The notes under the pieces: generated by a model
What the model was told of the DNA's origin: nothing
Database searches by the model: none
Seen by the model: only the letters and a program-made list of their open reading frames with translations
From: Plasmopara viticola
Taxonomy: Eukaryota > Oomycota > Peronosporomycetes > Peronosporales > Peronosporaceae
Assembly (NCBI GenBank): GCA_001695595.3
Contig: MBPM02000140.1
Span: forward strand, 50,372-114,371
Length of the DNA: 64,000 nucleotides
Reading direction: 5' to 3'
Translations under genes and position numbers: made by a program
In this document: piece by piece, positions 3,689 to 38,460 of the stretch
How the letters are laid out: the number at the start of each line of letters is the position of its first letter
Numbering within the stretch: the stretch's first letter is position 1

Positions 3689-4714
3689 TAAACAACGTCT
3701 AGAAAAGAACACGGTTAATGTCGGCAAATACTGAGTTCATTCCAATCGTTTAAAAAGCCGTCGTCCGAAGATGTGGGTGCTATCTGGTCGGGCAGCCTGC
3801 CGGGCGCCCTTACGGGTAAAGCCTCATCACTTGAAGAACGTCCGAATTTTCTGGGGTCCGCTGCCGCAAGTCTCGCACTTGATGTAGCCATACAGTGCAC
3901 CTGGAGGGTAACTGGATACGAGCCAGCCGCGTAAAAGACCGGAGTAGGGGGCGCCTGTAACAAAGCAGTGAGAAAGCGGCTTCGTAAGTCAAGAGCTTTG
4001 TCTTCTGTGAACCCTGGGGGCCAAGGGTACCTTGATGAAGTCTGAGAGCTGAATCCCAGTGGTTATGGTGACCCGAAGAGGCCTAAAAGGCCAATTTACC
4101 TGTGGTGCCATACCGGTCACTTTTTTATCTTTACTGTGAGGCCTGGAGAATCAAGAAATTTTCACTCCTCACGACGAATAAGAAGCGAGGGATTTTTGTC
4201 TTATAAAGTATAACGATCCCAAAAATGGGTCGGCCCACGGATTGGGCTGCGGATTACGCCGTCGCGAAACGACGCGACAGTGTGCTGAAAGACCGGACTT
4301 CCGTTTAAGCCCCTGAAGTCTTGATACGCGTGAGCAATTGGCATGCAATGGGCGCTGTATGTGCTGCCTAAGTGCCAAAAGTTGCGGCTGTTGATCGACC
4401 GCAGTTATCGAGCAACGTTGCCACGCACAAAGGGTCTAAATGGCCTTTTTCGCCCGAAGTTGAAGTCAAATCGGGGGCAAAAGTGTAGAACCGAAACCCT
4501 CCCAGACCAGTGATTGGATGAGATCCAAAAAATTACGTGGAAAACATAAGTTATGTATTTTCCTTTTTTTGAGGAAATTACATAAATTTTTGTATATTTC
4601 TATTTTGGGGGAAAATGCATAATTATATATAGTACACTAGAGAAGTTTAGAACAGATACTACGCCAGGCAAGTTGGGTAGACATTCGCCTATATCACATA
4701 ATATAGACGACCTT
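1..4714 (+). mobile_element. LINE A: Tx1/L1-like non-LTR retrotransposon, 5' part outside the window
   Basis: This is the right-hand part of an APE-type LINE that enters the window inside the endonuclease domain. It is almost identical to 10353-15071 of LINE B, offset by 10352 bases. It holds the end of the endonuclease, the reverse transcriptase, the C-terminal zinc-knuckle region and about 1 kb of 3' non-coding sequence (3689-4714) with no recognisable gene. The 3' end is set at 4714, because the following bases are the first 18 bases of the tRNA-Lys unit. The array unit to its right carries the same rare variant (AGCTAAACGGG) as the one right of LINE B, so A and B look like copies made by segmental duplication rather than by two transpositions. 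Confidence 0.9.
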
Positions 4715-4733
4715 CAACTGAGCTAAACGGGTA
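4715..4733. repeat. tRNA-Lys 5' stub (right-hand target-site duplication of LINE A)
   Basis: CAACTGAGCTAAACGGGTA is the complement of tRNA-Lys nucleotides 1-18 plus one flanking base. It follows directly on the LINE 3' end. It differs by one base from the duplication left of LINE B. Confidence 0.75.
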
Positions 4734-5216
4734 TACTCGAGTTAAGATAATATCAAATGTACACAAAAAGAGAAACACAACCAGGAGCAAGCACACCGAC
4801 AAACACACAAACACCAAGTATAAGCTCTTGGTATGCACGCACGCAACCACATTATTCTACTCGCATAAGCCGGACAAGAACGTCGTGACAAACGCATGAT
4901 TGAACATTCTTTTCCGAAGATCATACATAGTTTTCGTGTTTACGAACAGAATTCTAACTGCTGAGTGCAGACAGGCAGCCCATTTCCTAACAACGGAAAT
5001 GGTTCGATTATAGTCGAGCAGAAAATTTTTTTCTTTGCTGTTCAAAACAGCTAATTGCGTCGCTCTTGTAGTCAAGAGTAATTGCACCGTGAACGACCAT
5101 GACGATCGTTAAACTTAAAGAGAAATCTAAACAAATACGAAGAAGGAGCATGTGCTGCTTTCTAGTATAAATGCATAGCGCACAAATCTTTCACGCACGA
5201 CTCTTAGGCCATTTAC

Positions 5217-5289
5217 ACCCCCCCGTGGGGCTCGAACCCACGACCACTGGCTTAAAAGGCCAGCGCTCTACCAACTGAGCTAGACGGGT
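5217..5289 (-). tRNA. tRNA-Lys(UUU)-like gene, unit 1
   Basis: Read on the minus strand, a cloverleaf can be drawn: acceptor ACCCGTC, D arm GCTC-AGTTGGTA-GAGC, anticodon arm CTGGC-CTTTTAA-GCCAG with anticodon UUU, and T arm GTGGG-TTCGAGC-CCCAC. The A and B boxes of a pol III promoter are present. The 3' acceptor strand is a run of seven G, so the stem has a G5/G68 mismatch and lacks the A1-U72 pair seen in other units. No clear T-run terminator follows. Could be functional or a close pseudogene. Confidence 0.65.
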
Positions 5290-5877: not shown

Positions 5878-6361
5878 AACTCGAGTCAAGATAACTTCAA
5901 ATGTACACAAAAAGAGAAACATAACCAGGAGCAAGCACACCGACAAACACACAAACACCAAGTACAAGCTCTTGGTATGCACGCACGCAACCACATTATT
6001 CTACTCGCATACAGCCGGACTAGAACGTCGTGACAAACGCATAATTAAACATTCTCTTGCGAAGACCATACATAGTTTCGTGTTTACGAACAGAATTCAA
6101 AATGCTGAGTGCAGACAGGCAGCCCATCTCCTAACAACGGAAATGGTACGATTATAGTCGAGCAGAAAATTGTATTCTTTGCTGTTCAAAACAGCTAATT
6201 GCGTCGCTCTTGTAGTCAAGAGTAATTGCACCGTGAACGACCATGCCGATTGCTAGACTTAAAGAGAAATCTAAACCAAAATACGAAGAAGGAGCATGTG
6301 CTGCTTTCTAGTATAAATGCATGGCGCACTAATCTTTCACGCACGACTATTAGGCAATATA

Positions 6362-6434
6362 CAACCCCCGTGGGGCTCGAACCCACAACCACTGGCTTAA
6401 AAGACCTGCGCTCTACCAACTGAGCTAGACGGAT
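6362..6434 (-). tRNA. tRNA-Lys(UUU)-like, probable pseudogene, unit 3
   Basis: T arm and D arm are intact and the anticodon is UUU. The anticodon stem CAGGT/GCCAG has an A/A mismatch and a G-U pair, and the 3' acceptor is one base changed. A SINE has inserted at its 5' end with a 19-base duplication (6417-6435 and 6692-6710), leaving this full-length copy on the left. Confidence 0.5.
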
Positions 6435-6435
6435 A

Positions 6436-6691
6436 CCCGGTGGCGTGGGTTAGTGGATTATGCTTCTGGTCCTCACGGTGTGTGGTGCGGGTTCGAGCCC
6501 CACACCGGACAAACTTCGTAATCAACCAGACTTGGGGAGAGGACGGCCCCAAGCGAAATGTTTCCGACCCCGATCAAGAAAAAGACAATAACAAGACGAA
6601 AAAGAATCTTCAGACTAAAAATGTAAATGTAGAAATCCTAGCCAAGCCGAGAAGGTATAGGTTGTGTTAGGATTAAATACATGACAACTTT
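6436..6691 (+). mobile_element. SINE copy 1, tRNA-like head, inserted in tRNA-Lys
   Basis: A 256-base element. The head (about 6436-6510) has pol III-like boxes: an A-box-like GTGGGTTAGTGG and a B box GGGTTCGAGCCCC, with CCGGTG/CACCGG ends that can pair. I cannot fold it into a clean tRNA, so its parent tRNA is uncertain. The body (GACGGCCCCAAGCGAAAT onwards) resembles no gene. The tail AATACATGACAACTTT resembles the LINE C end AATATAGACAAACTTT. The flanks are a 19-base duplication of the tRNA 5' end (GGATA left, GGGTA right). No coding capacity, so it would need the LINE proteins. Confidence 0.75.
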
Positions 6692-7194
6692 CAACTGAGC
6701 TAGACGGGTATACTCGAGTTAAGATAATATCAAATGTACACAAAAAGAGAAACACAACCAGGAGCAAGCACACCGACAAACACACAAACACCAAGTATAA
6801 GCTCTTGGTATGCACGCACGCAACCATATTATTCTACTCGCATAAGCCGGACAAGAACGTCGTGACAAACGCGTGATTGAACATTTTCTTGCAAAGATCA
6901 TACATAGTGTTCGTGTTTACGAACAGAATTCTAAGTGCTGAGTGCAGACAGGCAGCCCATTTCCTAACAACGGAAATGGTTCCATTATAGTCGAGCAGAA
7001 AATTTTATTCTTTGCTGTTTAAAACAGCTACTTGCGTCGCTCTTGTAGTCAAGAGTAATTGCACCGTGAACGACCATGACGATTGTTAGACTTGAAGAGA
7101 AATCTAAACCAGAATACGAAGAAGGAGCATGTGCTGCTTTCTAGTATAAATACATGGCGCACAAATCTTTCACGCACGACTCTTAGGCAATTTA

Positions 7195-7267
7195 CACCCC
7201 CCTTGGGGCTCGAACCCACGACCACTGGCTTAAAAGGCCAGCGCTCTACCAACTGAGCTAGACGGGT
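7195..7267 (-). tRNA. tRNA-Lys(UUU)-like gene left of LINE B
   Basis: Full-length copy with a good anticodon arm and anticodon UUU. One T-stem change (CCCAA for CCCAC) gives a mismatch. Its 5' end now abuts LINE B, because the 19-base duplication made by the insertion restored nucleotides 1-18 here. Confidence 0.55.
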
Positions 7268-7268
7268 A
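7250..7268. repeat. Left target-site duplication of LINE B
   Basis: CAACTGAGCTAGACGGGTA at 7250-7268 recurs with one change (G to A) at 15072-15090, just after the LINE 3' end. LINE C begins GGTACTTC, so up to four bases (GGTA) at the left edge could belong to either the target or the element. Confidence 0.75.
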
Positions 7269-7353
7269 CTTCCCAATTTGCCGGCAACTACGCAAGTCAA
7301 ATCATAGGAAGTACCCCCTTTCAACCACCTTTTCTACCCTTCGTTCTATCGCA

Positions 7354-9884
7354 ATGGACAGCCCTGACATTTCTTCCCGCGCGTTTCGCAAAGAATCTTT
7401 CGAAAACGTCAAATCTGTCCCGTCTGCGTTGTTACTTACTGTAAGTAATCATCAATTGGAGAAGGGACTCGATATAGAGTTGCCTCTGACATCCAGTTCA
7501 ACTGACGACGCGGCTACGGTCACGCTGCCGAAACTTAATGCTTCCACCTCGGACGCGTTCGCTGGGTCAAGTGCGCCTGGTGGTACGGACAGCGAATCGA
7601 TTCTTTCCCCTCAGTCAGGCGTCAAGAATGTCTCGTCCCCACCAGATGAAGACATGCGTCCGACTATGGCTAGCTTACTTGCGCAGCAAGAAACCATTCG
7701 TCGGAGCACCGAGGACGTTGACGCTGCGCGTCGGCGTGTAGAAACGCCCAAGCCACTCGCCTGCGACATTGAAGCAATCGAACGTCAGTACGGTGCTGGC
7801 GGGGACTGGTCATTTATCGCCTCTCACATGGAGCAGGCGCGGCCATATACCCTTCCTCGTGCCAAGTACGATATGGTTATCGATACCGGACGCATGTTGC
7901 AAAAACACCGCTCCAGAAGATTATGGCATCGCTAACGGGCAAGCATCACGGCAATGATGTACTTGAGTGCCTGTACAGCAACTTCGAGATTGGCCAAGTG
8001 TCCAAACTTCCCGGTGGCAAAATTCGAATTAAAGTTAAGTCGAAGGACGCCTGCATCGCTCTCGAACGCACAAAGATAAACATCTTAGGGGGTGTATTTA
8101 TGTTTAAGGAATTCGACGTGCTAGGTGGCAAGTACTTTGTCGATATTTCTAATGTTGACTCGGACACGAAAACGGACGTAATGTTGCACCGCTTATTCTT
8201 GATGGGCTGCAAACCGGTGTACGATACCTTCCGTGAAGTGAACCTTGCAACTGGAATAACGTCAGCCACCTGGAGAGTATACTTCCTTAGCACGACATGC
8301 CCTGGTCCTCTCATTGTGAATGGATCGGTTTGTGACCAGCTCCAATTCGACAACAAACTGCACCCCGTGCACGGAAAGAACGCTCCATATCCTTCCGAGC
8401 GCTTGCCGTTCGGCTATCGTTCGCATCATTTCATCGACCTGTGCACGAGCGACACCAACTTGCAACGTCCAGCCACTCCAACCGGGTCATCGCCACTGCA
8501 AACTGTCACGGCACTTGCTGTAGCAAAACAGGAGCATCAAACGAACCCAAACATAGCCATTTCGAAGTCCAAGTCGATGACCTCGCTGCAGCGTGCAGTA
8601 CAAGAGTCCAGAGCGAAAAATGATAAGAAGCTTCAACAAGAAGTTCAGCATGGTCTGCCACACAACTGCAATCAGCTCGCGAGTCCTCCAAGCTGCACTG
8701 ACGATATTCTGTCAGTTGCAACGTTCGAAGGGTCGAGCGGAAAGATTTCTCCGCCCCGCAGTCCCGAAAGCAGTATGAAGAGACCAACGATGTATCTTAC
8801 AAACGGAGAAACCTCAGACGGATTCGCCACCGTCTGCAACAGCAAAAAACGGAGCCGCGGAGACATTGACTTCTCAAATCTTCTTACCAAAAAACAGACG
8901 CAATCACTCGATGGAATCGCGACTAAAAACTTCTTTGACGTCCTGCAGAACATGGAAGTCGATCTTGAGCTTAAAGACGTCACGGCAAGCAAGAAGTATG
9001 GCTTACGCAAGCAGATTGTACCAGTAGCCGTGGCACGTCCTATGGGAATGGCCACCGCAAAGGAGTCGGTATTTCTCATGGAAAAACACCACACAAAAAT
9101 TAAAAAAGCAGCGAAGGCTACGTCGATCCAAGAGGTTACCGAGGCAATGATCAATGATGAAAATACTGCCCTGCTTGATACGTTGCCAGATCGTCTTGTG
9201 CTTGCAGACGAAAAGGTCGATGGCATGGTCAAGTTACTTGATAATGCATCAAATCCAGACCTTGTGATGAAACCGGCAGCTCAATGTCCGATGGCTTTCA
9301 ACAGTGCGTTGTCCCTTAAAATGGCAGGTGACCACCGCATCATCGCTGAAATTGCGCAACTGCATGCAATCAATCGCGTATTATCAGCTACGTACCCGAC
9401 AGAAGACACAACTTTTGTTACAAAGTGGAAACGTGTCATGAATATGCCACTACCATCCAACCGCCATGACATCTTCAAGGCATGTGCCAAGTGGTGGACC
9501 CACTCTGACACGATTACGGAGCTTGCGCGTGCGTCGAAGGCACTCGGTATATTTGAGCTTGCGCTCATGTCCATTGCTCCGACACTCTTTACAAATGACC
9601 ACTGGATTCAATACTTTACAGGCCAGCCAGTCGAATGGATCTTGGCACACCACATGCGCTTTTTGCATCCCAACACACTGCTACGGCTGCTGCGTTCTAA
9701 GGTTGGAGAGCTTTGTATGGAGCAGTGGCGTGATGTACAATGGCAAGGTCACCTTCTAGACGATCTCGAAGTGCTCCGCCAGCTTGAAGGATACTATCCG
9801 GACGACTCATCGGTGTTAAAGATTCAATTAAATGCTGGCTCCTTGGCTACGACTGTGGCTGGAGCTGTTTCCAGTCGCTGCTAA
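7354..9884 (+). pseudogene. LINE B ORF1 protein (RNA-binding type, about 840 codons), one frameshift
   Basis: In LINEs ORF1 usually coats the element RNA; that role is inferred from position. Two overlapping frames (7354-7935 and 7923-9884) join at GCAAAAAC near 7897-7904, where one A appears to be missing. LINE C reads straight through the same point. Regions: a Ser/Thr/Pro-rich N-terminus (residues 1-110), a conserved block with ETPKPLACDIEAIERQYGAG (about 130-150), a region of alternating strands and helices with LPGGKIRIKVK and GKYFVDISNVDS that could be an RRM-like fold (about 205-290), a variable linker, and a helix-rich C-terminus with WWTHSDTITELARASKALG and HHMRFLHPNTLLRLL. I recognise no named domain in the C-terminal half. 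Start ATG 7354 follows the 5' end by 85 bases. Confidence 0.8.
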
Positions 9885-9927
9885 AGTTGGGTTGAAAGAA
9901 CAACACGCCTGGAACGCTCTCTCGCTT

Positions 9928-12900
9928 ATGACCGTGAACACAAACGGCATCAAGCGAAATGGTCACCTCTTCATTGACAATCTTTTAGCCAAGCACTCGC
10001 TAACATGCGTCCAAGAAACCAAGTTTGCTGACGCGCAGCATCTTAATACGTTCAAGTTTCACCTCTGCTCAAATTTTGCCCACAAACTCTTCGTCAATGA
10101 CAGTAACACGCGGCTCGATCGACCCACGCGCGGTCGCAGTAGTGGAGTACTGACACTGCTACGTTCTGATTTTCCTGGTATCGAAACGGCTGCAGAAATG
10201 GTACACCTGACTGTGCCGGGAAGGTATCTTGTTGTAAAGGTAACGGTTCAACGTGCTCCCGTCTACATTCACAATGTGTACGCGCCTGTCGATAGACACG
10301 AAAAGCAATCGTTCTTTCTAAACCTTCCAACAGATGGGTTTGAAAATGATGCAACGCACTTCGTACTCGGAGATTTAAATACGCCACTTGACCCTCAACT
10401 CGATTGCTCGAAACCTGACTTGCACTACGACCAGAGCCGCTCTTCTTGTCTTGAGTGGATTGCCAAACTAGGTGTAGTTGATGCGTGGCGTACCCACCAT
10501 GACTCTAAGCGAGTGTTTACTGGTCCTCTTCCTCGAAAAAATCGATTGGACTACATTCTGATTTCGGAGCAATTCTGCGACCGCTTCTACGAAAATGCCG
10601 AATATTTCCTGCCAATGCATGCTGGCGATCATCTTGCTCATAGCGTTTCCCTTCGAAGTGGTACGCAGCTACATGGTCGTGGTTATTGGAAATTTCGGCG
10701 ATACCTCCTCGAATATCCGAAGGTTGTATCAGCAATTGAAAGGGAGGCCGAGCAGGTCCTGGACCAGCTTCGCCATTCAGAAAACCCCGGAAAAATTTGG
10801 GAAAATTGGAAAAAAAGCATCAAGACTCAGCTTCAAGACGTCCAGAAAAAGCTCAGGCAACAAGACACGCGGGAGATCGAAGATGCTCGCGTCGCATTAG
10901 ATCAAGCAGCCGCCCGATACCGTGCATTGTCAGGCAAAGAGAATCGAGACTTTTTGACGATGCTTTGCGAAGCTATAAGGATATAGTCACGAGAACCCGC
11001 CAACACAATCATGATGCTTCTTTTGACTTTCAAGTCAACAACTCGGAACGCTCAACATCTCATTTTTTTCGTCCCTTAGACACAAGTTTGCGACGCGTTT
11101 CGATTGAGGAGGTTATAACACCAAGTGGACATGTCTCAACGAATCCTCAAGAAATCTCTCTGCGTTTCTTGGAGCACTGGGGATCTGAGATGGGTGATGT
11201 CAAGAGTCCAATCGAATCGGCCTCTGAGCCAAATGTCGCGCAGCAACGCATACTTCTTGACTCAATTTCGAGAGTCGTCCCAGTCACGAGCTGCACAGCT
11301 TTGGAAGCCGACCTGACCACTGCTGACCTTGCAACTGCAATCCGGCATATGAGAGCGACATCCTCTCCAGGCATGGACGGTTTAACGGCTGGATTTTATC
11401 AGGTGGCACCATCAGTATTTGGCGAGTGCCTCGCGATTGTTTTCAAGGATAGACTGAGGCGCGGCGAGCTTCTAGCGTCTCAGCGTAAATCAGCGGTCGT
11501 ACTGCTACATAAGAAAGGTTCACGCGCTGAGCCTGGCAATTATCGTCCAATTGCACTCGTGCCAGTCGACGTGAAGGTGCTGTCAAAAGCACTGACATAT
11601 CGATTACAAAAAGTAATACTGAACCTGATCCATCCAGACCAAAAAGGCTTCGTCAAGACCCGATCAATTCATCATCATGTACGCTTTCTTGCCGATCTGC
11701 AAGACCTTGTGACAAATCGAGACGAAGAGACCTACGCACTTTTCCTGGACTTTCAAAAGGCATTCGACCGTGTAAATTGGTCGTATATGTTTCGGCTGCT
11801 GGCTTGCATGGGCTTCGGACCAGTTTTTATTTCATGGATTCAGCTCTTGTACACCAAACCGAAGGCACACCTGCTCATCAATGGTAATATCCAGCCAGCT
11901 TTGCACCCTACTCGAGGCGTGAAGCAAGGAGACCCTTTGTCGGCACTCCTATTTGTGCTTACAATTGATCCTCTTGGAAATTTACTTCGCAAACATGACG
12001 AATACGGGATATGTCTGAATGCGAATTGTATGGTGACAAGTATGTTTTTCGCGGATGACTCGACGTTGCTCGCCGGGTCAATTGATCACGTTCGGGCTCA
12101 GCTTGCAATTGTAGACGTGTACTGTGCTGGCTCTGGAGCAAGACTTAATTTGTCCAAGTCGGTACTGCTGGCCCTAAATCGTAGCATGGTGTGTCCTGCA
12201 CTTCCCGGGGTCCAAGTTCTTGGACGTTCCGACACCACAAAATACTTAGGCATCCCGTTCGGTCAGGCGTCAGTCAACGACATGATTACCAATTTTTTGG
12301 ACGCTCGCTTCTTTGAGAGCATAAAATCATGGTACAGGCGTGCCCGCACACTTCGAGGTAGACTGCTCGTTGCACAGACGATGGTGCTATCGCGTTTGTG
12401 GCACTACACTCAGCACGCGAATATATCTCGGGTCATTGTGCGGCGTTGGCAATCGATGCTTAATCGGTTTGTTCTGAGTCGTAAGCATGATCGTGACGAA
12501 AAGCACGTGATGCTCATCCCGAGCGAATTTCTTTATCACAAGCGCACCCACGGTGGTCTTGGTATTCCACGTCTCGATGCCCAGCTCAAAAAGCAACGTC
12601 TTGCGCTGTTATTGCAGGTTATCGGAGCTGTAATTGGTGATGATGAGCAGAACTGGACGGCGGCGAGCATGGAGCTGCTGACGTCTGGATTACCTTGCTA
12701 TGGCGGATGCCACGCACTCGACTTTCTTACAATCTCACCGCTTCGTCACGGCAAGCCTACTCACTTGGCCGAACTGCAATGTGGTGGAGAGAGACGTGGG
12801 TGTGTTGGTACAAGACACGATGGAATGTCACGTGGCATGACTTGAGTTTGCACGAACGCGCCATGTATGGCCTACATCAGCCAATTTGGCTCCATGCTGA

Positions 12901-14041
12901 TGCTGATCTTCACTACGAGAGGCGAACACGATCCGATACGGTGGTGGTGCATCGACGTTGTCTAGGTCTGGTCGCCGAACCACAACGAAGCTTTCGTCTC
13001 CATATCTCATGTAGCTTCAAATTACGGTCACTCGCTGACTTCAGGTGTGTAGGTGAAGCGTGGCCAGCTGCAACCACCTTCGTACAGCGACATATCGACT
13101 ACACGCTTGTCTCAGTGCGACCGTACACACAGATGAAGTGGCTGCGCTCGCTGTACCGGGATGCGACGCAAATTGTTGACCGCCTTGGAGCACAACAACT
13201 TGTACGGGAATCGTCAAGCATAGACGCACACGGATGTCTGCTTCCACGAGTTGGCTACAGAAAAAAAGCGAAGATATTCTTGATCCCGAAGATTCCACGG
13301 TCAGCGATCCTGAAAATTGTCTGGGCGCCTAACCCTCCAAAAAAGCCGCACCCGATGAAAATTTACTCAAAGCGTGGCGACGACCAACAGATTGAAGCAT
13401 TCGCGGAGTATCGAAAGCGGCTGCGCCAGATCCTGCTTCCGGTCTTCGAAGACTTGCAATTTCGTCTTGCGTTTCGCTTGCTACCCGTGCGATCGCGCTT
13501 CTGGTTCTTGGAGACGTCACATCCAGGCATCCGTAAATGCGTGCGCGCAGGATGCAAAGCGATAGAGACTGAGAAGCATTTATTTTTCGACTGCACGCTG
13601 GCGTCAAGGCTCTGGTGTCAGATCTTGCAGCTTGTCTCACCATTCTTTGTCTCTCGACCGTCGTGGCTTGATATAACTCTCGCGAACAAGATGCACGTAC
13701 GCGACGACTGGGTTCAATGTTCTGGTGTGGTACGAGATGTATGGCATGTGCTTCGAGCTGTGGTACTTCACACGATCTGGACGAACCGCAATCGATGCTT
13801 GTTCGACGGACGGCAACCGATACCGGTAGCTCCAGCACTCTCAGTCATATTGTCGACTTTCTGTGCGCACATTCGCTTTTTCCAGCGACACCTGTACTAC
13901 CGGAAGCTGAGACAAGATCTAAAACAAGTGATTGACTCGCTGAAGACCCATTCCGTGTTCCACAGCTTCACTTGTCAGCACCCGGGCATCACCAATAACC
14001 TGCAAGGCAGCACCATCAAGACCTGTGCGCACATGAACTAA
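9928..14041 (+). pseudogene. LINE B ORF2: APE endonuclease, reverse transcriptase, zinc-knuckle region; two frameshifts
   Basis: Start chosen at ATG 9928 (MTVNTNGIKRNG), 44 bases after the ORF1 stop; LINE C has the same start context. The APE endonuclease covers about residues 1-240 with motifs TVNTNG, QETKF, VYAPV, LGDLN, RLDYIL and GDHLAH. The reverse transcriptase follows with SSPGMDGLTAGFY, NYRPIALVPVDVKVLSK, HPDQKGFV, FLDFQKAFDRVNW, KQGDPLSALLF, FADDSTLL and KYLGIPFG. The C-terminal part has RLAFRLLPVRSRFW, a zf-RVT-like spacing (C-x4-C ... H-LFFDC) and WTNRNRCLF. The overall style is closest to the Tx1/L1 group, which includes known target-specific elements. Frame breaks: a base lost at the T run 10951-10955 (LINE A has ACATTTTT), and one lost near 12766-12781, shared with A. 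Confidence 0.88.
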
Positions 14042-16206: not shown

Positions 16207-16207
16207 A

Positions 16208-18184: not shown

Positions 18185-18185
18185 A

Positions 18186-19047: not shown

Positions 19048-19048
19048 A

Positions 19049-22864: not shown

Positions 22865-22904
22865 GCTGATCTCGACGTCGCACCTGACTTGGAACAACAC
22901 CAGT

Positions 22905-26985: not shown

Positions 26986-27058
26986 TTTGTCCGCCACAAG
27001 TTTTATTATTCACTTTCGATTTTGCCGGCTAAGGCTCAAGCGTCCCAGCAACTCCAGT

Positions 27059-27287: not shown

Positions 27288-27666
27288 TGAAGATAGCCCG
27301 TTGTATAGCCGGCTCGTGGAAAGTGACGATCTAAAGGCGGAACGAAGCGACAGTGAGCTAGAGAACCAGTCGTGCGTTTCGGCGCCAGAGTGAACTACAC
27401 GTGCAGCCAGTTGGTACACACCTGGCTATATATATGCTGCACAGATGGCAGAAGCACCAGCAGGTAACTCGCAGAAGCTACCGAGAAATTTCGACCCGCG
27501 CGAAGGGTCCAGCAGCCATTTTCCGATTCAACACATGGCAAAATGTAGAACCCTACACACCAACCTAACACTAGATTATGTATATTACACAGAATTAGTT
27601 CAGATTAGATATTAGGCCAGGCAAGTTGATTAGTCAATCGTCTATAAAGTTAATATAGACAATTTA

Positions 27667-27738
27667 AACTGAGCTAGACGGGTATACTCGAGTCAAGAAA
27701 ATATCAAATGTACCCAAAAAGAGAAACACAACCAAGAG
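27667..27738. repeat. tRNA-Lys stub and spacer between LINE D and LINE C
   Basis: Holds the tRNA 5' stub and about 54 bases of array spacer (TATACTCGAGTCAAG ... ACAACCAAGAG). The same stretch follows LINE C (35472 onwards), so it can be read as an unusually long (about 72-base) target-site duplication of LINE C. Confidence 0.65.
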
Positions 27739-27837
27739 GGTACTTCTCAATTTGCCGGCAACCCCTCAAGTCGACTCATCAGAAGAACCTAACCCTCCCC
27801 CCTTCTCTGACCACCTTTCGCTCTTTCGTCAGTACAG

Positions 27838-30518
27838 ATGGAAATTCAAGCCGCAGAAATTGCCGCAACCCCCTTCCCAATGCCTCTGCACCGTCCACCG
27901 TTTAGTCGCCGCGTGATGCAGCTGGATCTTCGCCTGTCTCTGCACCAAGAATCCAGTCGGCACCCAACAATCTGGGTACCGCGGGGAGCTCATCTCCCTT
28001 GGATTCTCCGACTAGCTCTAAATCCTCTGGCGACTCCTCGGCAGCCACTCGTCCAGCTGCGCCACCATCACCTCCCGTACCTTTGTTGCATCCCTCGTCC
28101 GCGCTTTTCGAGCCGCCTGCACCCGTGCTCGAAGACTCGAGCGACGAGCCGATAGATGCGCCTCCCGATGCTGTCTCTACCGTCGCTGCTACTGCTGACG
28201 TGTCTGCTGACGTGTCTGGTGTTCCCGCCAACACTGTCGCCCCCAGCACGTCAGTGATCGCAGATCACGAAGACGAGCTGATGGAGCCGCCTCCAACTGA
28301 TAAAGCGTCGACTGCACCTGTCGACACGCGTTCGACGATGGCCGCACTGCTGCGAGAGCAGGAGACCATCCGTCGCGACGAAGCCAAAGTCGAAGCGAAG
28401 CGAAGCCGCATCGAGACGCCAAAACCGCTTGCATGTGACGTCGAGTCGATCGAGCGCCAGTACACTGCTGGACGGGGCTGGTCGTTAATCGCCTCACAGA
28501 TAGAGCACCCGCGCGCGTAACGACATGGTCATAGACACGGGACGCACTTTCGCGAAGACTCCACTGCAGAAGAACATGGCGTTGCTGACTGATTCGCACC
28601 ACGGAAACGACGCGCTTGAGAAACTGTACAGCGAGCACGCGATCGGCCAAGTGTCATAGCTCCCTGGCGGCAACCTACGCGTGAAGATCAAAACAAAGGA
28701 AGCCTGCCTCAAGCTCGAGCGCACGACGGTGAACATATTGGGCGGTATATTCTTGTTCGAGGAGTTCGATGTCCTTGCAGGCAAATACTTCCTCGACATC
28801 TCTACCGTCGATTCAGACACCAACACGGATGCGATCCTGTTTCGGCTCTTTATTCTTGGGTGCAAGCCGATCTATGACACGTTCCGCGAGGTGAACATGG
28901 CGACCGGCATCCCTTCGGCGACGTGGCGAGTGTACTTCCTCTCGAACACGTGTCCAAAGCCGCTGATGGTGAACGGCTCGGTATGTGACCAGATTCTGTT
29001 CGACAACAAGCTGCACCCAGCTCACGGCAAGAGCGCACCGTATCAGTCCGAGCGTCTGCCTTATGGCTATCGCTCGCTCCACGGCATCGATCTGCTCACA
29101 AGTGACGAAGTCTTCCCGCGTCCGATCCCCCCGGCCGAGTCGTTGTCGTCGCAGACACCAAAGCAACCCACGAAGCAGCAACAAGCTATGCCGACGATTC
29201 CTGCGCAAGCGACGACGAACGGCAAGCGAATGACCTCGCTGCAAAAGGCAGTTGAGGAGTCCGAGAAACGCAATGGGAAGCTTCAGAACGGAGCTCCGCA
29301 TGGCTCGCCTCCTGGCACCAACCAGCTTGCGAACATTCCAAGCACCCAAGGTGATGCTCTGTCGATCTCAACATTCGAAGGATCCAACGGCAAGATTTCT
29401 TCCCCCGGCAGTTCTAAAGGCAAGACGAAAGCTCCACTCTTCCTTTTAATGAATGGCGGCAACTCGGACAGATTCTCGACAGTCCAGAAAAAAAGAGGCG
29501 CAGACGCAGCGAGATCGACTTCACTGCTCTGCTCACGAAGCAGCGATCGCGGCCTTTCGATGGCGTCGCGACTGTGAACTACTTCGAAGCACTCCAGTCT
29601 ATGGAAGTCGATCTTGTAGTCAAAAATGCCATCGCGAACAAGAAGCACGGCGTGCCAACCAATGTGAAGCGTCCCGAGGCGGTGAAGACTGCAGCGGAGT
29701 CGGCGTTCTTCGTCGAGAAGCACCACACAAAGATCAAGAAGGCAGCTAAGGCATCGTCAATACTTGAGGTGACCGAGTCGATGATCAACGATGAGAACAC
29801 AGCACTGCTCAACATTCTCCCGGACCGTCTCGCAGAAGCTGACGCAAAGGTGTTTGGTATGGAGAAGCTCATCGAGAACGCGACGAACCCCGACCACAAT
29901 GTGAAGTCGGCCGCTGCCTGCCCACTCGCGTTCAACAGCGCGCTGTCACTCGCGATGGATGGTGACGGTAGACCAATCGAGGAGCTTGCGCAGCTTCGCG
30001 CAATAAACCGCGTGCTATGCGCGACGTACCCCGACGAAGACACAACATTCGTGACGAAGTGGAAGCGCGTCATGAGGATGTCGATACTTCCGAAACGTCA
30101 AGACATTTTCGAGGAGTGTGCCAAGTGGTGGACCCACACAGACGCGATCACAGAGCTGTCTCACGCATCCAAGGCGCTTGGCATGTTCGACCTCGCGCTC
30201 ATGTCGATCGCGCCGACTTTGTTTAAGAAAAATCATTGGGTCCAGTATTTCACAGATCAGCCTGTTGAGTGTATTCCGGCGCACCACATGCGTTTCCTCC
30301 ACCCCAACACGCTGCTGCGACTGCTGCGGTCGGACCTCGGCTCACACTGCATGCAGCAGTGGCGTGAAGTACAGTGGCAGGGTCACTTGCTCGACGATCT
30401 GGAAGCGCTGCGCCAGCTTGATGGCTACTATCCGGTCGACTCGTCGGTACTGAAAATCTGCGTGGATGCTGATGGCCTCGCAATGACAGTAGCGAGCAGC
30501 TTGTCCACCCGTTCCTAA
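27838..30518 (+). pseudogene. LINE C ORF1, broken
   Basis: ATG at 27838, then a shift into the frame of 27999-28520, which is rich in Ser, Pro, Ala and Asp and contains ETPKPLACDVESIERQY. A further shift near 28518, a stop near 28660 (TAG in place of the K of SKLPGG) and a shift near 29490-29574 follow. The C-terminal part 29574-30518 is open and matches LINE B (KWWTHTDAITELSHASKALG). At the site of the LINE B frameshift, C reads in one frame (GRTFAKTPLQKNMA). Confidence 0.82.
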
Positions 30519-30561
30519 AGCTCCCTCTGCTGCACAGCACGCCTGGGTTCCCGTCTCTCTG

Positions 30562-33500
30562 ATGACCGTAAACACCAATGGCATCAAGAAGAACGGCCAC
30601 CTCTTCATTGACAACCTCCTCTCCAAGCATTCGGTGTTGTGCGTCCAAGAAACCAAATTCGGCGACGCACAACACCTCTCAACCTTCAATTTCCACCTCG
30701 ACTCGAGCTTCACGCACAAGATCTTCGTCAACGATCCAAACGCGTTGCGGGATCGACCCACGCGCGGTCGATGAAGCGGAGTATTGACGCTGTTGCGCTC
30801 CGACTTCCCAGGCTTCGACACGGCTGCTGAAATACCGCGCCTTTCAGTGACAGGCAGGTACCTCGTCGTGAAAGTGACGGTCGAGTCTGCTCTCGTCAAC
30901 ATCCACAACGTATACGCGCCAGTTGATCGCCAAGAGAAGCAGCAATTCTTCATGAGTCTGTCGACCGATGAGTTTGAGGATGACGCGACGCACTTCGTAC
31001 TCGGAGACCTGAACACGCCGCTCGATCCGCGACTAGACTGCTCAACACCCGACCTGCGCTACGACTCAAGTCGCTCCAGCTGTCTGGAGTGGCTCGCGAA
31101 GCTTGGGTACGTCGACGCTTTGCGGATCCACAACGACACTAAGCACGTATTCACCGGTCCGCTTCCACGGAAGAACCGGCTGGACTACATTTTGATGTCG
31201 GAACGGTTTAGTGACTGCTTCTACGACAAGTTCGAGTACTTCTTGCCCAAACACGCCAGCGACCACCTTGCGCACAACATCTCGCTTCGCTCCGGCACGC
31301 AGCTTCACGGTCGCGGATACTGGAAGTTTCCACGGTATCTGCTAGATTTCCCACAGGTCGTTTTGGCGATCGAGAAGGAAGCCGAGATGGAACGTGATCA
31401 CCTGCGCGCAGTGGAAACCCGGGAAAGTTCTGGGAGCAGTGGAAAACGAGCATCAAGAAGCAGCTACAAGGCATACAGAAGAAGCTTCGACAGCAGGACT
31501 CACAAGCCATCGAGGACTCCCGCGTCACGCTGGACCAAGCTGCCGCGAGGTTCCGCGTGTCACCGAGTGAAAACGATCGCGAGCTCTTTGACGAAGCCAT
31601 GAGTAACTATAAGGAGACGGTGACGCGGACGAGCCAGTACAACCACGATACTGCATTCGACTTCCAAGCCGCCAACTCCGAGAAGTCCACCATGCACTTC
31701 TTCCATCCACTGGACACGAGCTTGCGACGAGTCTCGATTGAGGAAGTTGTGACACCGAGTGGAGGTGTCTCGAACCCTTACGAGATCTCGCTCCGTTTCC
31801 TGGAGCACTGGGGGTCTGAGATGGGAGACCTTGACAGTCCGACAGGAAGAGTTCCTCCACCCGACGACGCCATGCAGCGCAAGCTCTCGACTCAGTCTCG
31901 TTCTTCGTCTCGGACTCTGACCGCGAAATGCTTGACGCTGAGTTAACAGCAGCAGACCTCGCAGGTGCGATCAAGCATATGAAGGCGACGTCATCGCCCG
32001 GAATGGATGGCTTGACCGCTGGTTTCTACCAAGTGGCGCCAGATGCGTTCGGCGAGTGCTTGGCGATTGTGTTCTCAGACCGACTTCGACGTGGCGAGCT
32101 CATGACGTCTCAGCGCAACTTGGCAGTCGTGCTACTACACAAGAAGGGCTCACGCGCCGATCCTGGCAACTACCGGCCGATCGCGCTCATACCAGTCGAT
32201 GTGAAGGTGCTGTCAAAAGCGCTGACGTATCGGTTGCAGGGCGTGATCCCCGACTTGATTCATCCGGACCAAAAGGGGTTCGTCAAAGGCCGCTCGATAT
32301 ATCTCCAAGTGCGCTTCCTCTTCGATCTGCAAGATCTTGTCACAAGCCGCGACGAAGAGGCATACGCGCTGTTCTTAGACTTCCAGAAGGCCTTCGACCG
32401 TGTCAACTGGGACTACATGTTCCGGCTGCTTGAGTGCATGGGCTTCGGACAGGGCTTCATTAAGTGGATCCAGCTTTTGTACACAAATCCCCAAGCGCAC
32501 TTGCTGGTCAACGGCAACGTCCAACCAGCATTGCATCCGACGCGCGGCGTGAGGCAAGGCGATCCGCTCTCGGCGCTGCTCTTCGTGCTCACGATCAAGC
32601 CGCTCGGGAACATGCTGCGCGCGCATGAAGAGCACGGTGTGTGTCTGGATGAAGATCACACGGTGACGAGCATATTCTTTGCGGATGACTCGACGCTTCT
32701 CGCCAGATCACTCGTGAATTTTTAGGAGCAGCTTGTGACCGTGGACGAGTATTGCCAAGGCTCTGGAGCAAAACTCAACTTGTCCAAGTCTGTGCTGCTG
32801 ACGCTAAACCGAAATGCCGAATGTCCTGCACTGCCTGGCGTTCATAAGCTCGCGCCCATGGACACGGTCATATACTTGGGCATCCCATTTGGACAAGCGC
32901 CTCTGGACAACATGACCATCGAATTCCTGGATCAGCGCTTCTACGACGGCTTCAAGACTTGGTACCGGCGCGCGCGCACGCTTTGTGGTCGACTCCTGGA
33001 AGCACAGACGATGGTGTTCTCGCGCCTGTGGCACTACACACAGCTTGAACCGATTCCGCAGACAGTGGTGCGACGTTGGCAGTCGATGCTTAACCGTTTC
33101 GTCTTGAGTCGCAAGCACGACCGCGATACAAAGCATGTGCAGCTCATCCCGAGTGAGTTCTTGCACCAGCAGCGCAGCGACGGTGGATTGGGAATTCCAA
33201 AACTCGATGCCCGGCTCAAGCGTCAACGTCTCTCCCTACTGCTGCAGTTCATGAGCGTGGCGAGTGTGACGCACGAGAGGCATTGGGAAACGGCGAGCGT
33301 CGAGTTACTGACGGCCGTGATGCCTTGCTACGCCAATTGCAATGCGCTGGACTTCCTCACGATCTCTCCACTTCGACACGGCAAGCTTATCCGATGGGGT
33401 CGAGTGTCGGCATGGTGGAGAGCAACATGGATGTGGTAGAACAAGACGCGCTGGGGAATCACGTGGCGCGACCTGCGTCCAAACGAGCACGCGATGTATG

Positions 33501-34557
33501 GTCTAAATCAGCCGATCTGGTTCCACGCAGATGCAGAGCTGCACTATGAGAAGACCATGCGGACAGCAACGACAGAAGCGCATCGAAGGTGTCTCGGGAT
33601 GGTTCCCGAGCCACAGCGCAGCTTTCGTCTGCATGTCTCGCGCGTATTCGACCTGTGATCGCTTACTGACTTCCGACACGAGGGTGAGGCGTAGTTGACT
33701 TGTGATGAGTTTGTCCAACGCCACCTCGACCTCACATTCGTACCGGTTATACCGGGTGTACAGGCAAAGTGGCTTCGTGCGCTGCATTACGAGGCAACGC
33801 AGATTGTGAATCGACTTAGTGCACTGCAGCTGGTGCGAGACTCGTCAAACGCTAGCTCGAGGCGCCTGCTCCAGTGCTTGGGATGTACGAGCGGCACAAG
33901 GACGTGCTTAAATCCGGCAATTCCGAAATCGGCGCTATTGCAAGTCGTCTGAACACTACAGCTTTCGAGCAAGCCACATCCGATGGCAAACTTCTCTTGG
34001 CTCGTCGACGAGCAGCGGATTAAGGCATTCGCCAAGCACGGCAGGTGACTGAGTAAGATCTTACTGCCGGTTTTCGATGACTTGCAGTTTCGACTCGCGT
34101 TGCGGCTGCTTCCCGTGCGCTCACGCTCTTGGTTCCTGGAAGTATCAAATTCAGGTATACGAATTTGTTTCGCGATGGCTGCGAAGCAATCGAGACAGAA
34201 CAACACTTGTTCTTCGACTGCATGCCCGCATCGCAGGTGTGGTGGCAAATCTTAAGACTCGTCTCGCCGTTCTTCGTCTCTCGCTCTGGCTGGATTGACA
34301 TCGCTCTCGGAAACAAGCTGCGCGTCCGCGGAGCGTGAGACGAGTGCGCCGACGTGGTGCGCGACGTGTGGCACGTTCTTCGAGGAGCGACGCTGCACAC
34401 GATCTGGACGGATTGCAACAGGTGCCTGTTTGACGGAAGACAGCCGACACCAGCAGCTCCGGCGCTCGCGGTGATCTTCTCGACGTTCTGCGCGCACATT
34501 CGGTTCTTCAACGGCGATTGTACGATCGAGAAGAGAATCGCAAGCTACAGCGAGTGA
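30562..34557 (+). pseudogene. LINE C ORF2, broken
   Basis: Starts MTVNTNGIKKNG. The endonuclease is interrupted by TGA near 30772 and continues at 30784-31602 (LGDLNTPLD, RLDYIL). The reverse transcriptase at 31928-33439 has FLDFQKAFDRVNW, VRQGDPLSALLF and FADDSTLL; a stop lies near 32723. The C-terminal region 33440-34557 has further stops. Through 33360-33420 it reads ISPLRHGKLIRWGRVSAWW in one frame, which shows that A and B lost a base there. Confidence 0.82.
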
Positions 34558-34638
34558 TCGAAGCGATGAAGACTCATCCAGCTTTCGGTGACCTTACAGA
34601 CCGACAACCAGATATCATCAGTGTTCGGTCAGGGGCGG

Positions 34639-34954
34639 AGCCGGGGTAGCTTTGACGAAGTCAGACCACACACACTCCGTACCCCATAGAAACCCTTCCT
34701 CCTGCGCACCGTTAACCCCAGCCGATTCTGCACAAGCTTCAGAGTTACCCACACCTTGGAGGGTTGAAGCCGTGGCCGCTTCAACGAAATCGGACCGAAC
34801 ACACTCCGATCCCTCCGCCGATAAGGTTATTTCTGCGAGCACAGAACCGGCGCCATTACCAGCGGACCCATCGCGAGGTCCCGAGCTTTTCTCATTGAGG
34901 AGGGAAGCCGGAACAGCTTCAACGGAATCAATTCGCACACACTCCGTTCCCTCC
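34639..34954 (+). repeat. Three degenerate repeats of about 130 bases in the LINE C 3' region
   Basis: Cores at 34639-34684, 34768-34816 and 34906-34954 share GCCG-GG/GC--GCTT--ACGAA-TC ... ACACACTCCGT-CCC. In the open frame 34652-35206 they encode variants of A-STKSDRTHSVPS (TKSDHTHSVPH, STKSDRTHSDPS, STESIRTHSVPS). It is unclear whether this was ever translated. Confidence 0.65.
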
Positions 34955-34995
34955 ACCAGGTTGGGGCTCTCCTCAAGCGCGATCGTTGGCATTCT

Positions 34996-35117
34996 AAAAA
35001 AAAAAAAAATGCGTCAGACCAGCGAGCCAAGTCGGGACCCCAAAATGTACCCATTTTTTGGTACCTCCATCGAACAAAGTCGGACACCTAAAATGTACCT
35101 TTCTTTTGGTACCACTT
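34996..35117 (+). repeat. Run of 14 A and a pair of 48-base-spaced direct repeats
   Basis: A run of 14 A at 34996-35009 is followed by two copies (from 35030 and 35078) of AGTCGG-AC-C--AAATGTACC with TTTTGGTACC. This might mark an older 3' end joined to foreign sequence before the true LINE end at 35471. 35118-35440 holds nothing I recognise. Confidence 0.6.
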
Positions 35118-35471
35118 GGGGTTTTGGCAAATTCGAAAATGAGAGCTCTCCCAACCAACCACAATTTCGGAAAACCTTCCGACAAAACTCCAGACCTCCC
35201 AAATAACCTGCATATTTTGAAGACCTTTCAAACATCATCCGAAGCTTGGCTCAGAACCTCCGAAAACGCATAATCAAGGTGGAACACATATTTTGTGTCC
35301 CACACCAGCTTGGTGTGCCAAAGAGATCGTTGAATCCACCATTGCTGTATCGACAACTTCATTTCTTTAAGTACTCATTAGACTGTATATTAGTATTTAT
35401 AGTTTATACTTATAGCTTGGTACAATTGAGAAGTCACATCGTCTAAATTATTCATAATATAGACAAACTTT

Positions 35472-36051
35472 CAACTGAGCTAGACGGGTATACTCGAGTT
35501 AAGATAATGTCCAATGTGCACAAAAAGAGAAACACAACCAGGAGCAAGCACACCGACAAACACACAAACACCAAGTATAAGCTCTTGGTATGCATGCACG
35601 CAACCATATTATTCTACTCGCATATAGCCGGACAAGAACGTCGTGACAAACGCATGATTGAACATTCCCTTGCGAAGATCATACATAGTTTTCGTGTTTA
35701 CGAACAGATATCTAACTGCTGAGTGCAGACAGGCAGCCCATCTCCTTACAACGGAAATGGTTCTATTATAGTCGAGCAGAAAGTTGTATACTTTGCTGTT
35801 TAAAACAGCTACTTGCGTCGCTCTTGTAGTCAAGAGTAATTGCACCGTGAACGACCATGACGATTGTTAGACTTAAAGAGAAATCTAAACCAAAATACGA
35901 ATAGGAGCATGTGGTGCTTTCTAGTATAAATGCATGGCGCACAAATCTTTCACGCACGACTATTAGGCAATATACACCCCCCGTGGGGCTCGAACCCACG
36001 ACCACTGGCTTTAAAGGCCAGCGCTCTACCAACTGAGCTAGACGGGTACAA
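35472..36051. repeat. tRNA-Lys array, block III (one unit)
   Basis: Begins with the stub CAACTGAGCTAGACGGGTA left by LINE C and continues with the usual spacer to a full-length tRNA ending at 36047. Confidence 0.8.
35975..36047 (-). tRNA. tRNA-Lys-like gene with anticodon UUA
   Basis: Best acceptor of the set (A1-U72 restored, six-C run on the plus strand) and intact D, T and anticodon stems. The anticodon loop reads CTTTAAA in place of CTTTTAA, so positions 34-36 are UUA, which would pair with the stop codon UAA. Most simply a pseudogene mutation. Confidence 0.6.
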
Positions 36052-36308
36052 CCCGGTGGCGTGGGTTAGTGGACTATGCTTCTGGTTCTCACGGTGTGTG
36101 TCGCGGGTTGGAGCCCCACACCGGACAAATTTCGTAATCAACCAGACTTGGGGAGAGGACGGCCCCGAGCGAAATGTTTTCGACCCCGATCAAGAATAAG
36201 CCAATTACAAGACGAAAAAGAATATTCAGACTAAAAGACTAAAATGTAGAAATTCTAGTCGAGCTGAGAAAGTATAAGTTGTGTTAAGATTAAATACATG
36301 ACAACTTT
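36052..36308 (+). mobile_element. SINE copy 6
   Basis: About 257 bases and the most diverged copy (GGGTTGGAGCCCC at the B box; internal repeat GACTAAAAGACTAAAA). Three extra bases (CAA) lie between the tRNA flank GGGTA and the SINE. Ends ACATGACAACTTT, then stub CAACTGAGCTAGTCGGGTA at 36309-36327. Confidence 0.7.
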
Positions 36309-36327
36309 CAACTGAGCTAGTCGGGTA
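36309..36327. repeat. tRNA-Lys stub between SINE 6 and LINE E
   Basis: CAACTGAGCTAGTCGGGTA. LINE E starts straight after GGGTA, the same left junction used by LINE B and the SINEs. Confidence 0.65.
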
Positions 36328-38460
36328 GGCACCCCGTTTTGTCAGGCGCCAGGCAACGACCTGATCGCCGCATTCTTGGATGCTCGCTTCTTTGAGGGCA
36401 TTAAGTCATGGTGCCGGCGCACCCGAACACTTGATGATATTTTAACGAGGCCTCTTGGATATTCAAAACATCACGACCCAGTAAAGCATAGGTAGACTGC
36501 TCGTTGCACAGACGATGGTGCTATCGCGCTTGTGGCACTAGCGAATATATCTCAGGTCATTGTGCGGCATTGGAAACTGATGCTCGACGGATATGTGCCT
36601 GATTGTAATCGGAAGCACTTAATGCTCCTTCCGTGTTAATTTCTTTATCATCGGCACAAGCAAGGTGGTCTTGGAATTCCGCGTCTGGGTCACAGCTCAA
36701 GAAGCAACGTATTCCGCTGTTTTTGCAATTTGTCGGGACTGTAAGTACTGCTGCTAGCGAAATGGACGACGGCGAGTGTTGAGCTGCTGATGTCAGGGTT
36801 ACCCTCCTATGGTGAATGCCACGCACTCGACTTTCTCTCGATTTTACCGCTTCGTCACGGCCAGTTTTTCTCACTTGGCCACAGTGCAATGTGGTGAAGA
36901 TAGACGTGGGTGTGCTGGTACAAGGCTGAATGGGACGTCACGTGGCATGACTTGGATTCGCATGAACGCGTCATGTATGGCCTATATCGGCCGATTTGGT
37001 TTCATGCTGATGCTGATCTTCACTACGAGAAGTGAACACAATCAGATACGGTGGTGGTGCATCGACGTTGTCTAGGTATGGTTACTGAACCACAACGAAG
37101 CTTTCATCTCCATATCTCACGTATCTTCAAAATATGGTCACTCGCTGAGTTAAGGTGTGAAGATGAAACGTGACCAGCTGCAACCACCTCCGTACAGCGA
37201 CATATCGACTTCACGTTCGTCTTAGTGTGACCGTATACACAGATATAGTGGCCACAGTCGTTGTAGTGTGGAGCGACACAGATTTTAGACCGCCTTGGAG
37301 CAAGACAACTCGTACGAGACTAGCGCCGCACAAAAATGTCTGCTTCTACGAGTTGATTACAGGAATAAAGCAAAAAATATTCTGGATCTCGAAGATTCCA
37401 CGGCCAGTGATCCTAAAAGCTGTCTGGGCTCCTGATCCTCCAAGAAAGCCGTACCCGATGAAAATTCACTCGAAGCGTGTCGACAACCAACAGATTGAAG
37501 CTTTCGCGGAGTATAGCAAGCGACTGCGCCAGACCCTGCTTCCGGCCTTCGATGACTTGTAGTTTCGTCTAGCGTTTTGCTTGCTGCCCTTGTGACCGCG
37601 CTTTTGGTTCTTGGAGACGTCGCATCGAGGCATCCACATATGCGTGCGTGCACGCAATCGAGACTGATCAGCATCTATTTTTTGACTGCCCAATTGCGTC
37701 GCAGCTGTGGTGTCAGGTCTTACAGCTCTTCTCGCTTTCTGTGTCGCTTGTCCGTCTTGGTGCAGCATTGCTCTTGCGAGAAAGCTGCGCGAATACGAAA
37801 ACTCGATTAAATGAATTAATGTGATACGAAAAGTACGACATGTGCTCCAAGCTGTAGTGCTACACACAATCTGTACGAGCACCAATCGAGCTTGTTCGAT
37901 GGGCGGCAATCAATACCAACAGCTTCAGCGCTCTCGCTGCGCTTGTTGATGTTCTGTGTGCATATTTGCTCTTTCCAACGGCACTTGTACGACCTTAAGC
38001 TGATAAAGATCTATAACGAGCGATCGACTCGCTGAAAACTCATTCCATGTAATGAGACTTCACCGGCCTGCACTCGTGTGCGTAGTCTGTAATTTTGAAC
38101 GACAAAACGAGTGCCAACAAGACCTGTACGCATAGAAAGTACCGGCAGCGTCTACAATCAATATCGGCAAATATTGCGTTTATTACAACTGTATTTTGTC
38201 TGTTGTGCGCTGCTGTGGGAGCCTACGGGTCGGTCAGCCTGCCGGTCCGTTAACCGGTGAAGTTACATCACTTGGAGAGCGTCTAGGGGCTCTTGGGTTC
38301 GTCTCTGCGAGCGTCACACTTGATAAAGCCATATAGCGTTCTTGGAGGATTGGCAATGGTGTGGGACGACGCCAGAGGCCGTAGAAGGCAGCGACTGCTG
38401 AGGTAGCGGAAAGTCAAAGGAAATGATACCAGATGCTTTTTATCGATACCGGACCCGAGA
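36328..38460 (+). mobile_element. LINE E: strongly 5'-truncated, decayed copy
   Basis: Starts inside the reverse transcriptase at the equivalent of GIPFGQASVNDMI and runs through the zinc-knuckle region (37400-37780) into the A/B-type 3' region (AATATCGGCAAATATT near 38161, TCACACTTGATAAAGCC near 38312). Full of stops. A stretch of about 55 bases near 36433-36490 (GATGATATTTTAACGAGG onward) interrupts the homology, so something small was inserted. The 3' end is uncertain. Confidence 0.8.

Follow-up and report, generated by a model that had tools for sequence, protein, structure and literature searches.

How retrotransposable elements can enter tandemly arrayed transfer RNA (tRNA) genes at one point while the genes persist is the question raised by a 64-kb stretch of the Plasmopara viticola genome (contig MBPM02000140.1, positions 50,372 to 114,371; hereafter the window), in which an array of tRNA-Lys genes is interrupted by long and short interspersed nuclear elements (LINEs and SINEs). 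From this window alone, the original prediction was that a LINE and a SINE insert at one exact base of tRNA-Lys genes. Genome-wide analysis of element tails confirmed that both kinds of element end at one exact tRNA point, more widely than had been claimed; what is targeted, however, is not tRNA-Lys in itself but an A-box core found in at least 14 tRNA species. Judged by sequence, site specificity at the tRNA A box is established. We consider it highly probable that the LINEs and their likely partner SINE enter at this single A-box point through a nick made after A14 by an apurinic/apyrimidinic-type endonuclease (APE) and reverse transcriptase (RT) priming there.

The genome scanned comprises 92.94 Mb in 358 contigs and holds the window. 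Exact element-only tails without target letters served as queries, namely AATATAGACGACCTT (LINE A), WAATATAGACAACTT and AAATACATGACAACTT (SINE), and the sequence beyond each tail was then inspected; the same patterns written backwards, used as a control, matched 0 (LINE A), 2 (LINE C type) and 0 (SINE) times. The LINE A tail occurs at 36 places and is followed by CAACTGAG in 36/36 (26 among loci L001-L030 and 10 among L091-L100), and the adjoining 14-mer is at most one mismatch from a catalogued tRNA in 37/37 rows, which represent the 36 places. LINE A copies whose tail deviates from the query (L008, L013, L016, L021), which are not counted among the 36, likewise end in the site. All 26 places with the LINE C-type tail lie in tRNA genes, 25 in A-box sequence (two of them altered, L086 with TAACCGAGC and L087 lacking one base) and one (L084) on the opposite strand of a tRNA-Leu gene. 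The SINE tail was found at 136 places, a count outside which SINEs with a variant tail fall, including three of the window's six; TCAACTGAG comes next in 124, and among ten inspected of the remaining 12, eight (L111-L113, L115-L119) fall in tRNA sites that are altered at one or two letters. For LINE D, 10/10 copies fetched from the best 14 of 40 rows end in the site, one of them (L110) with changed letters. The exact tails were absent from the other genome contig set and gave two matches in viral contigs, possibly chance 17-letter matches.

The host flanks, compared over 30 nucleotides (nt), comprise 10 distinct sequences for LINE A, 17 for LINE C, 16 for the SINE and 4 for LINE D when those with up to five mismatches in 30 letters are merged, although some of these remain tRNA-family variants or nested copies. 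Together with host tRNA genes of nine amino acids, these flanks indicate that the pattern does not come from one array. Random flanks elsewhere in the genome, the outcome that the original prediction had set against itself, were thus not borne out. The predicted orientation of the elements, opposite to the host tRNA, also holds, with L084 as the sole exception among the copies inspected.

Host identity was assigned by ARAGORN, which was run on the retrieved loci and permitted introns for Tyr, and by 14-mer matching. The hosts span at least 14 anticodons and nine amino acids plus one tRNA-Leu: Lys-TTT, Lys-CTT, Ile-AAT, Ile-TAT, Tyr-GTA (with intron), Thr-AGT, Thr-CGT, Thr-TGT, Ala-CGC, Ala-AGC, Phe-GAA, Met-CAT, Cys-GCA and Arg-ACG, with Leu-CAA on the other strand. 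Ile-TAT, Cys, Arg and Leu are represented by one locus each, and Thr-AGT and Thr-CGT, which have an identical 14-mer, were separated by the array in which they sit. Given this range of anticodons, a target confined to tRNA-Lys was rejected. On the strand that would be nicked, the core reads TAGCTCA, TGGCTCA or TGGCCCA, and TTAGACCA in the tRNA-Leu case.

Arrays that alternate two tRNA genes are an internal control for target choice. In Ser-GCT/Thr-CGT arrays the SINE adjoins Thr in 10/10 loci, and a Thr stub stands at 15/15 distinct LINE/SINE junctions (contigs C166, C254, C328); in His/Ala-AGC arrays the LINE stub is Ala in 3/3. The Ser and His genes of these mixed arrays lack the AGCTCA core. 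Since these loci were retrieved through element tails, they show which gene gets hit and not the frequency of empty arrays. Genome-wide, TAGCTCA occurs 14433 times, of which 2760 fit the tRNA D-arm pattern, so the 7-mer alone is not the whole signal.

The cut itself had been placed between G18 and G19, but the junction letters point most likely to a first-strand nick after A14, with the element ending in ...AAC and the host starting with TGAG. Up to A14 the letters track the host, for example GGCCCA in Arg and GACCA in Leu. Beyond A14, the host genes read GTTG (Lys-TTT, Met, Tyr, Phe), GTCG (Lys-CTT, Ile-AAT), GTGG (Thr, Cys), AATG (Ala) or ATGG (Arg). The junctions, largely irrespective of host, read CAAC always in LINE A and mostly in the SINE and LINE D, while those of LINE C relatives read TAAAC or TAAC and, once each, TGAAC, ATAAC and a doubled TAAAC (L072), the last of which would follow if the element RNA itself ends in TAAAC. 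Neither CAAC nor TAAAC is present in the D loops of the Ala, Thr, Ile-AAT, Lys-CTT, Cys and Arg hosts, and these letters thus appear to derive from the element. A few junctions depart from the usual letters in hosts that lack the departing letters as well (CGAC at L101, a LINE D copy; TAAC at L102 and at the SINEs L111 and L118), which fits template variation. A nick after C13 may also be compatible, since A14 could be templated.

Within the window, ARAGORN called 13 tRNA genes, all on the minus strand, of which 12 are Lys(TTT) and one is Lys-type with a TTA anticodon. The tRNA-Lys(TTT) genes form a tandem array with a unit of ~557-600 bp that is interrupted by LINEs A-E and six SINEs. With at most one mismatch, the 11-mer CAACTGAGCTA is found 25 times in the window against 1.4 expected, and 0/100 shuffles had as many. 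Directly 5' of it are the ends of LINE A (1-4714), LINE B (7269-15071) and LINE D (~27739-35471), and all six SINEs (starts 6436, 16208, 18186, 19049, 19882 and ~36052) abut it at their 3' end. The 3' neighbour of LINE C is AAACTGAGCTA, so the predicted sharing of the next bases held for LINE A/B, LINE D and the SINEs and failed for LINE C. Unfilled array units, such as those at 5272 and 15631, contain an unbroken gene, and empty and filled sites are adjacent in one array. In the following list the final CAAC of LINE A is counted as element-encoded.

1..4718, plus strand: LINE A, its 5' part lying before the window; 99.3% identical to LINE B positions 3085-7803
816-2492: RVT_1 open reading frame (ORF) of LINE A (Pfam match)
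4719..4733, no strand assigned: 3' target duplication copy TGAGCTAAACGGGTA, antisense of tRNA-Lys nt 1-14 plus 1
5216..5289, minus strand: tRNA-Lys(TTT), an empty target site (ARAGORN, Rfam)
6361..6435, minus strand: tRNA-Lys gene whose 5' end adjoins SINE 1 (ARAGORN, Rfam)
6436..6695, plus strand: SINE 1, from CCCGGTGGCGTG to GACAACTTTCAAC
6696..6710, no strand assigned: 3' target duplication of SINE 1
7194..7268, minus strand: whole tRNA-Lys gene at the LINE B 5' end, of which 7254-7268 is the 5' duplication copy
7269..15075, plus strand: LINE B, full-length as judged by its 5' end, with broken frames
7923..9884, plus strand: ORF1-like frame of LINE B, without a Pfam match
9832..10986, plus strand: APE-type endonuclease PF03372 of LINE B
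10797..12845, plus strand: reverse transcriptase RVT_1 of LINE B
12695..14041, plus strand: C-terminal part of ORF2 of LINE B, with CX4CX7HX4C and without a Pfam match
15076..15090, no strand assigned: 3' target duplication of LINE B
16208..16467, plus strand: SINE 2
18186..18444, plus strand: SINE 3
19049..19308, plus strand: SINE 4
19882..20140, plus strand: SINE 5
21301..27669, plus strand: LINE C, 5'-truncated, 3' end ...GACAATTTAAAC, then TGAGCTAGACGGGTA
27739..35475, plus strand: LINE D, start approximate, 3' end ...GACAAACTTTCAAC
36052..36312, plus strand: SINE 6, start ~36052
~36328..38300, plus strand: LINE E, a 5'-truncated fragment after SINE 6, end approximate, 3' end not found

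LINE A and LINE B are 99.3% identical and the array blocks behind them are ~90-96% alike, so the two may be one insertion copied along with the array; the six window SINEs may likewise represent few events. The gene with the TTA anticodon (35974-36048), reported by ARAGORN as 'Stop', adjoins SINE 6 and is an altered Lys-type gene. The longer array units, which start at 5272, 17021, 18441 and 20137, contain a duplication of ~30 bp that includes TATAAATGCATGG and lies close to the 3' end of the following tRNA gene.

The insertions are flanked by a target duplication whose two limits are A14 and a point 1-3 bp upstream of tRNA nt 1. In a comparison of the two flanks at each of 30 SINE loci, the exact repeat from TGAG measured 15-17 bp in 21, 14 in one and 12 in four, and was broken by a substitution in the remaining 4/30, so that 26/30 have an exact repeat. 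The duplication at LINE B in the window is alike except for one mismatch; there, tRNA nt 1 falls at 7267 and the element begins at 7269. On the 5' side an entire tRNA gene stands head-to-head with the element, 1-3 bp from its 5' end, and a 14-nt tRNA stub is left beyond the 3' end. Thus, by duplicating tRNA nt 1-14, the insertion keeps a complete tRNA gene on the 5' side. As far as sequence can tell, the tRNA gene beside the insertion is intact; some tRNA copies of the arrays, for example the gene beside SINE 1, carry substitutions.

The ORFs of LINE B match PF03372 (3e-9) and RVT_1 (2.4e-35), with the endonuclease preceding the RT, and the best PDB matches of both are L1 ORF2p, in agreement with the APE type that had been predicted. 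The motifs NTNG, QET, GDLNT, LDYI and GDH are presumably the APE catalytic motifs expected from L1. The elements thus have the anatomy of APE-type retrotransposons without long terminal repeats (non-LTR), namely APE before RT, the C-terminal CX4CX7HX4C and flanking duplications with a fixed 3' end, and lack the restriction-like endonuclease (RLE) of the NeSL type, the endonuclease being APE. No Pfam match to RNase H was found in the ORFs downstream of the RT in LINE A and LINE B.

Among 120 listed matches, the nearest named RT relatives are from oomycetes (Peronospora, Globisporangium, Phytophthora, Aphanomyces and Albugo); in the viral contig collection none were confirmed. In a tree of 49 rows, 44 of them picked from the 120 and some on long branches flagged by the tree program, the window LINEs fall in a clade of 26 rows (support 98/99; four rows are the window's) whose named members are all oomycete and which lies outside the group of human L1 and vertebrate sequences. 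A likeness to the Tx1 group had been suggested; in this tree, which contains no labelled Tx1 sequence, membership of the Tx1 clade is at most possible. Kojima and Fujiwara reportedly described site-specific APE LINEs of the Tx1 clade in 2004, with 5S rRNA, U2 and microsatellites as targets. Such LINEs resemble those found here in combining APE with exact small-RNA-gene targets, whereas those targets differ from tRNA.

The SINE ends in the tail GACAACTTT, which is common to LINE C relatives, and is likely the partner of these LINEs as judged by sequence. Its head has A- and B-box-like motifs, recognized by eye in SINE 1, and received no tRNA call from Rfam or ARAGORN.

Combining the insertion anatomy with known target-primed reverse transcription, we infer the following course of events. 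At the core T(A/G)GC(T/C)CA, the APE-type endonuclease would nick the sense strand of the tRNA gene immediately after A14, with recognition probably requiring further D-arm sequence or RNA polymerase III (Pol III) context in addition to the core. The 3' end of the element RNA would anneal to the nicked A box, from whose end the RT would prime, and the second strand would be cut 1-3 bp before tRNA nt 1. The SINE could be moved by the LINE through the common tail plus the AAC-type end. With only slightly better than even confidence, we favor a broader reading, in which an oomycete LINE lineage and a SINE use the A box as a general gene-sparing docking site: one nuclease would read the core of more than 12 tRNA species, a staggered cut would duplicate the first 14 nt, and the antisense D-arm end of the RNA would pair with the nicked A box.

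That transcription machinery rather than DNA sequence selects the site is the alternative we weighed most, and we regard it as unlikely. Under such tethering, TFIIIB and TFIIIC would bring the LINE complex to any tRNA gene and the exact base would follow from geometry. All inspected sites but two are indeed tRNA genes, although 81% of TAGCTCA occurrences lie outside the D-arm pattern, and Dictyostelium TRE5-A requires the B box and has an ORF1 protein that binds TFIIIB components (PMC5391098, PMC5911963). TRE5-A, however, inserts ~47 bp outside the gene (PMC5391098), whereas the site described here is intragenic and base-exact, with an AGCTCA-like core (in the Leu case it is on the other strand, at TTAGACCA), and no insertions were found in the Ser-GCT and His genes of the same arrays. 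There is next to no probability that a single insertion was merely copied with tRNA arrays and had no real specificity. Copies did multiply within arrays, as the near-identity of LINE A and B and the SINE tails often 650-660 bp apart on contig C76 attest, but four element families share a single insertion base across many tRNA species whose flanks are unrelated, and the distinct host flanks counted above rule out amplification as the full explanation. Equally improbable is that the tRNA-like stub belongs to an element that inserts anywhere. The terminal CAAC and TAAAC do appear to be element-encoded; from TGAG onward, however, the letters differ between hosts and agree with the tRNA gene at the element's 5' side, the LINE A 14-mers all match catalogued tRNAs as described, and the upstream flank of the matching tRNA family comes next. 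An element-borne stub was rejected on these host-matched stubs.

A cut between G18 and G19, followed by overwriting of host letters 15-18, for example by gene conversion, has a small probability, below that of tethering. GTTG is also native to the Lys-TTT, Met, Tyr and Phe hosts, and the three SINEs L115-L117, which share a contig and lie in Lys-CTT genes, show CGAC, which equals the host letters; on the other hand, no catalogued host D loop matches TAAAC or TAAC, the ends of the LINE C type, and Ala hosts (AAATGG) nonetheless show CAAC. L115-L117 belong to several observations that weigh against a nick after A14 by an active, tRNA-specific LINE that also moves the SINE. Their CGAC would fit a cut deeper in the D loop, or a variant template. 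L084 (contig C349), a LINE C-type copy in tRNA-Leu(CAA), is the only other-strand case among the 26 exact LINE C-type tails. Two SINE tails with identical flanks (L114, L120) lie in non-tRNA sequence, and 46 of the 124 SINE places were followed past the TCAACTGAG motif. Array duplicates are common, so that independent events are fewer than copies, and reading frames are broken in the window's LINE copies. Finally, mobilization of the SINE by the LINE is suggested by a short shared tail and a shared site. As to L114 and L120, they are perhaps a single off-target insertion that was later copied, or a chance match.

LINEs targeted to tRNA genes are already known (TRE, NLTR-A, NeSL/LIN), and the insertions described here are of the site-specific LINE/SINE kind with an unusual, gene-rebuilding geometry. 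NeSL-1_TV (Pro), LIN15_SM (Arg) and LIN25_SM (Glu) are likewise tRNA-gene-specific, but belong to NeSL-related RLE lineages and are each reported for one tRNA species (PMC4640811), whereas APE and many tRNA species are found here. The oomycete Utopia LINEs are also specific for a small-RNA gene and differ in their U2 small nuclear RNA target and restriction-like endonuclease (PMC4640811). Nearest in geometry, by comparison with published descriptions, appears to be NLTR-A of Dictyostelium purpureum, an APE non-LTR element with its border 2-6 bp upstream of tRNA nt 1, against 1-3 bp here; it has an RNase H domain, whereas none was found in the LINE A/B ORFs tested, and in the available parts of the two articles we met no mention of an A-box stub, a duplication or a SINE for it (PMC5006619, PMC5911963). 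The Dictyostelium TRE5 and TRE3 elements are also APE LINEs tied to many tRNA genes, but insert ~47-50 bp upstream or ~100 bp downstream, with a poly(A) end and a link to TFIIIB/TFIIIC (PMC5391098, PMC5911963, PMC5006619); rather than at a fixed distance outside the gene, the 3' end here lies inside it at ~A14/15. Several Dada transposons hit tRNA nt 8-13, in the same A box and in some cases at TAGCTC then AG, but these are DNA transposons and duplicate nt 8-13 within the gene (PMC8869645). Targets in tRNA are merely mentioned in PMC5035012. In the literature searched, outside which Repbase reports and most subscription journals lie, we found no description of an APE LINE and a SINE sharing one A-box base across many tRNA species, so a prior description is possible.

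Such elements would enter essential genes at one base, with thousands of candidate sites, without destroying them, since the duplication rebuilds the gene. An APE nuclease that naturally targets the interior of tRNA genes could be useful for studies of site choice and safe-site insertion, and the mixed Ser/Thr and His/Ala arrays make the question of DNA sequence versus Pol III machinery directly testable. For oomycete genomics, tandem tRNA arrays are known from Phytophthora infestans (PMC9584435), and tRNA gene clusters of Peronospora effusa were interpreted as SINE-like (PMC11540230), whereas the tRNA arrays and the SINE within them can be distinguished here.

Several further observations concern the arrays and the remainder of the window. 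On contig C76 (~447-22949), the SINE tails are on one strand and often at the spacing given above; it appears that the SINE was incorporated into a unit of a tRNA-Tyr array and has been amplified along with that unit. Tandem elements separated only by a tRNA stub (SINE-SINE, LINE-SINE, SINE-LINE) were seen at L034, L081, L087 and L057; a SINE after a SINE (L034) or after a LINE (L081, L087) fits either use of the stub as a target or a fresh insertion at the whole tRNA, since both result in the same order. Elsewhere in the window, inverted repeat arms at 47038-47301 and 50326-50589 (87 + 135 nt, 99% and 93% complementary) lie ~3 kb apart, with a TCF25-like ORF (48834-49352) between them. To the right of the tRNA array, 58381-60201 and 63008-63999 contain three ORFs with weak matches, one to the Ras family and two of the WD40-like kind.

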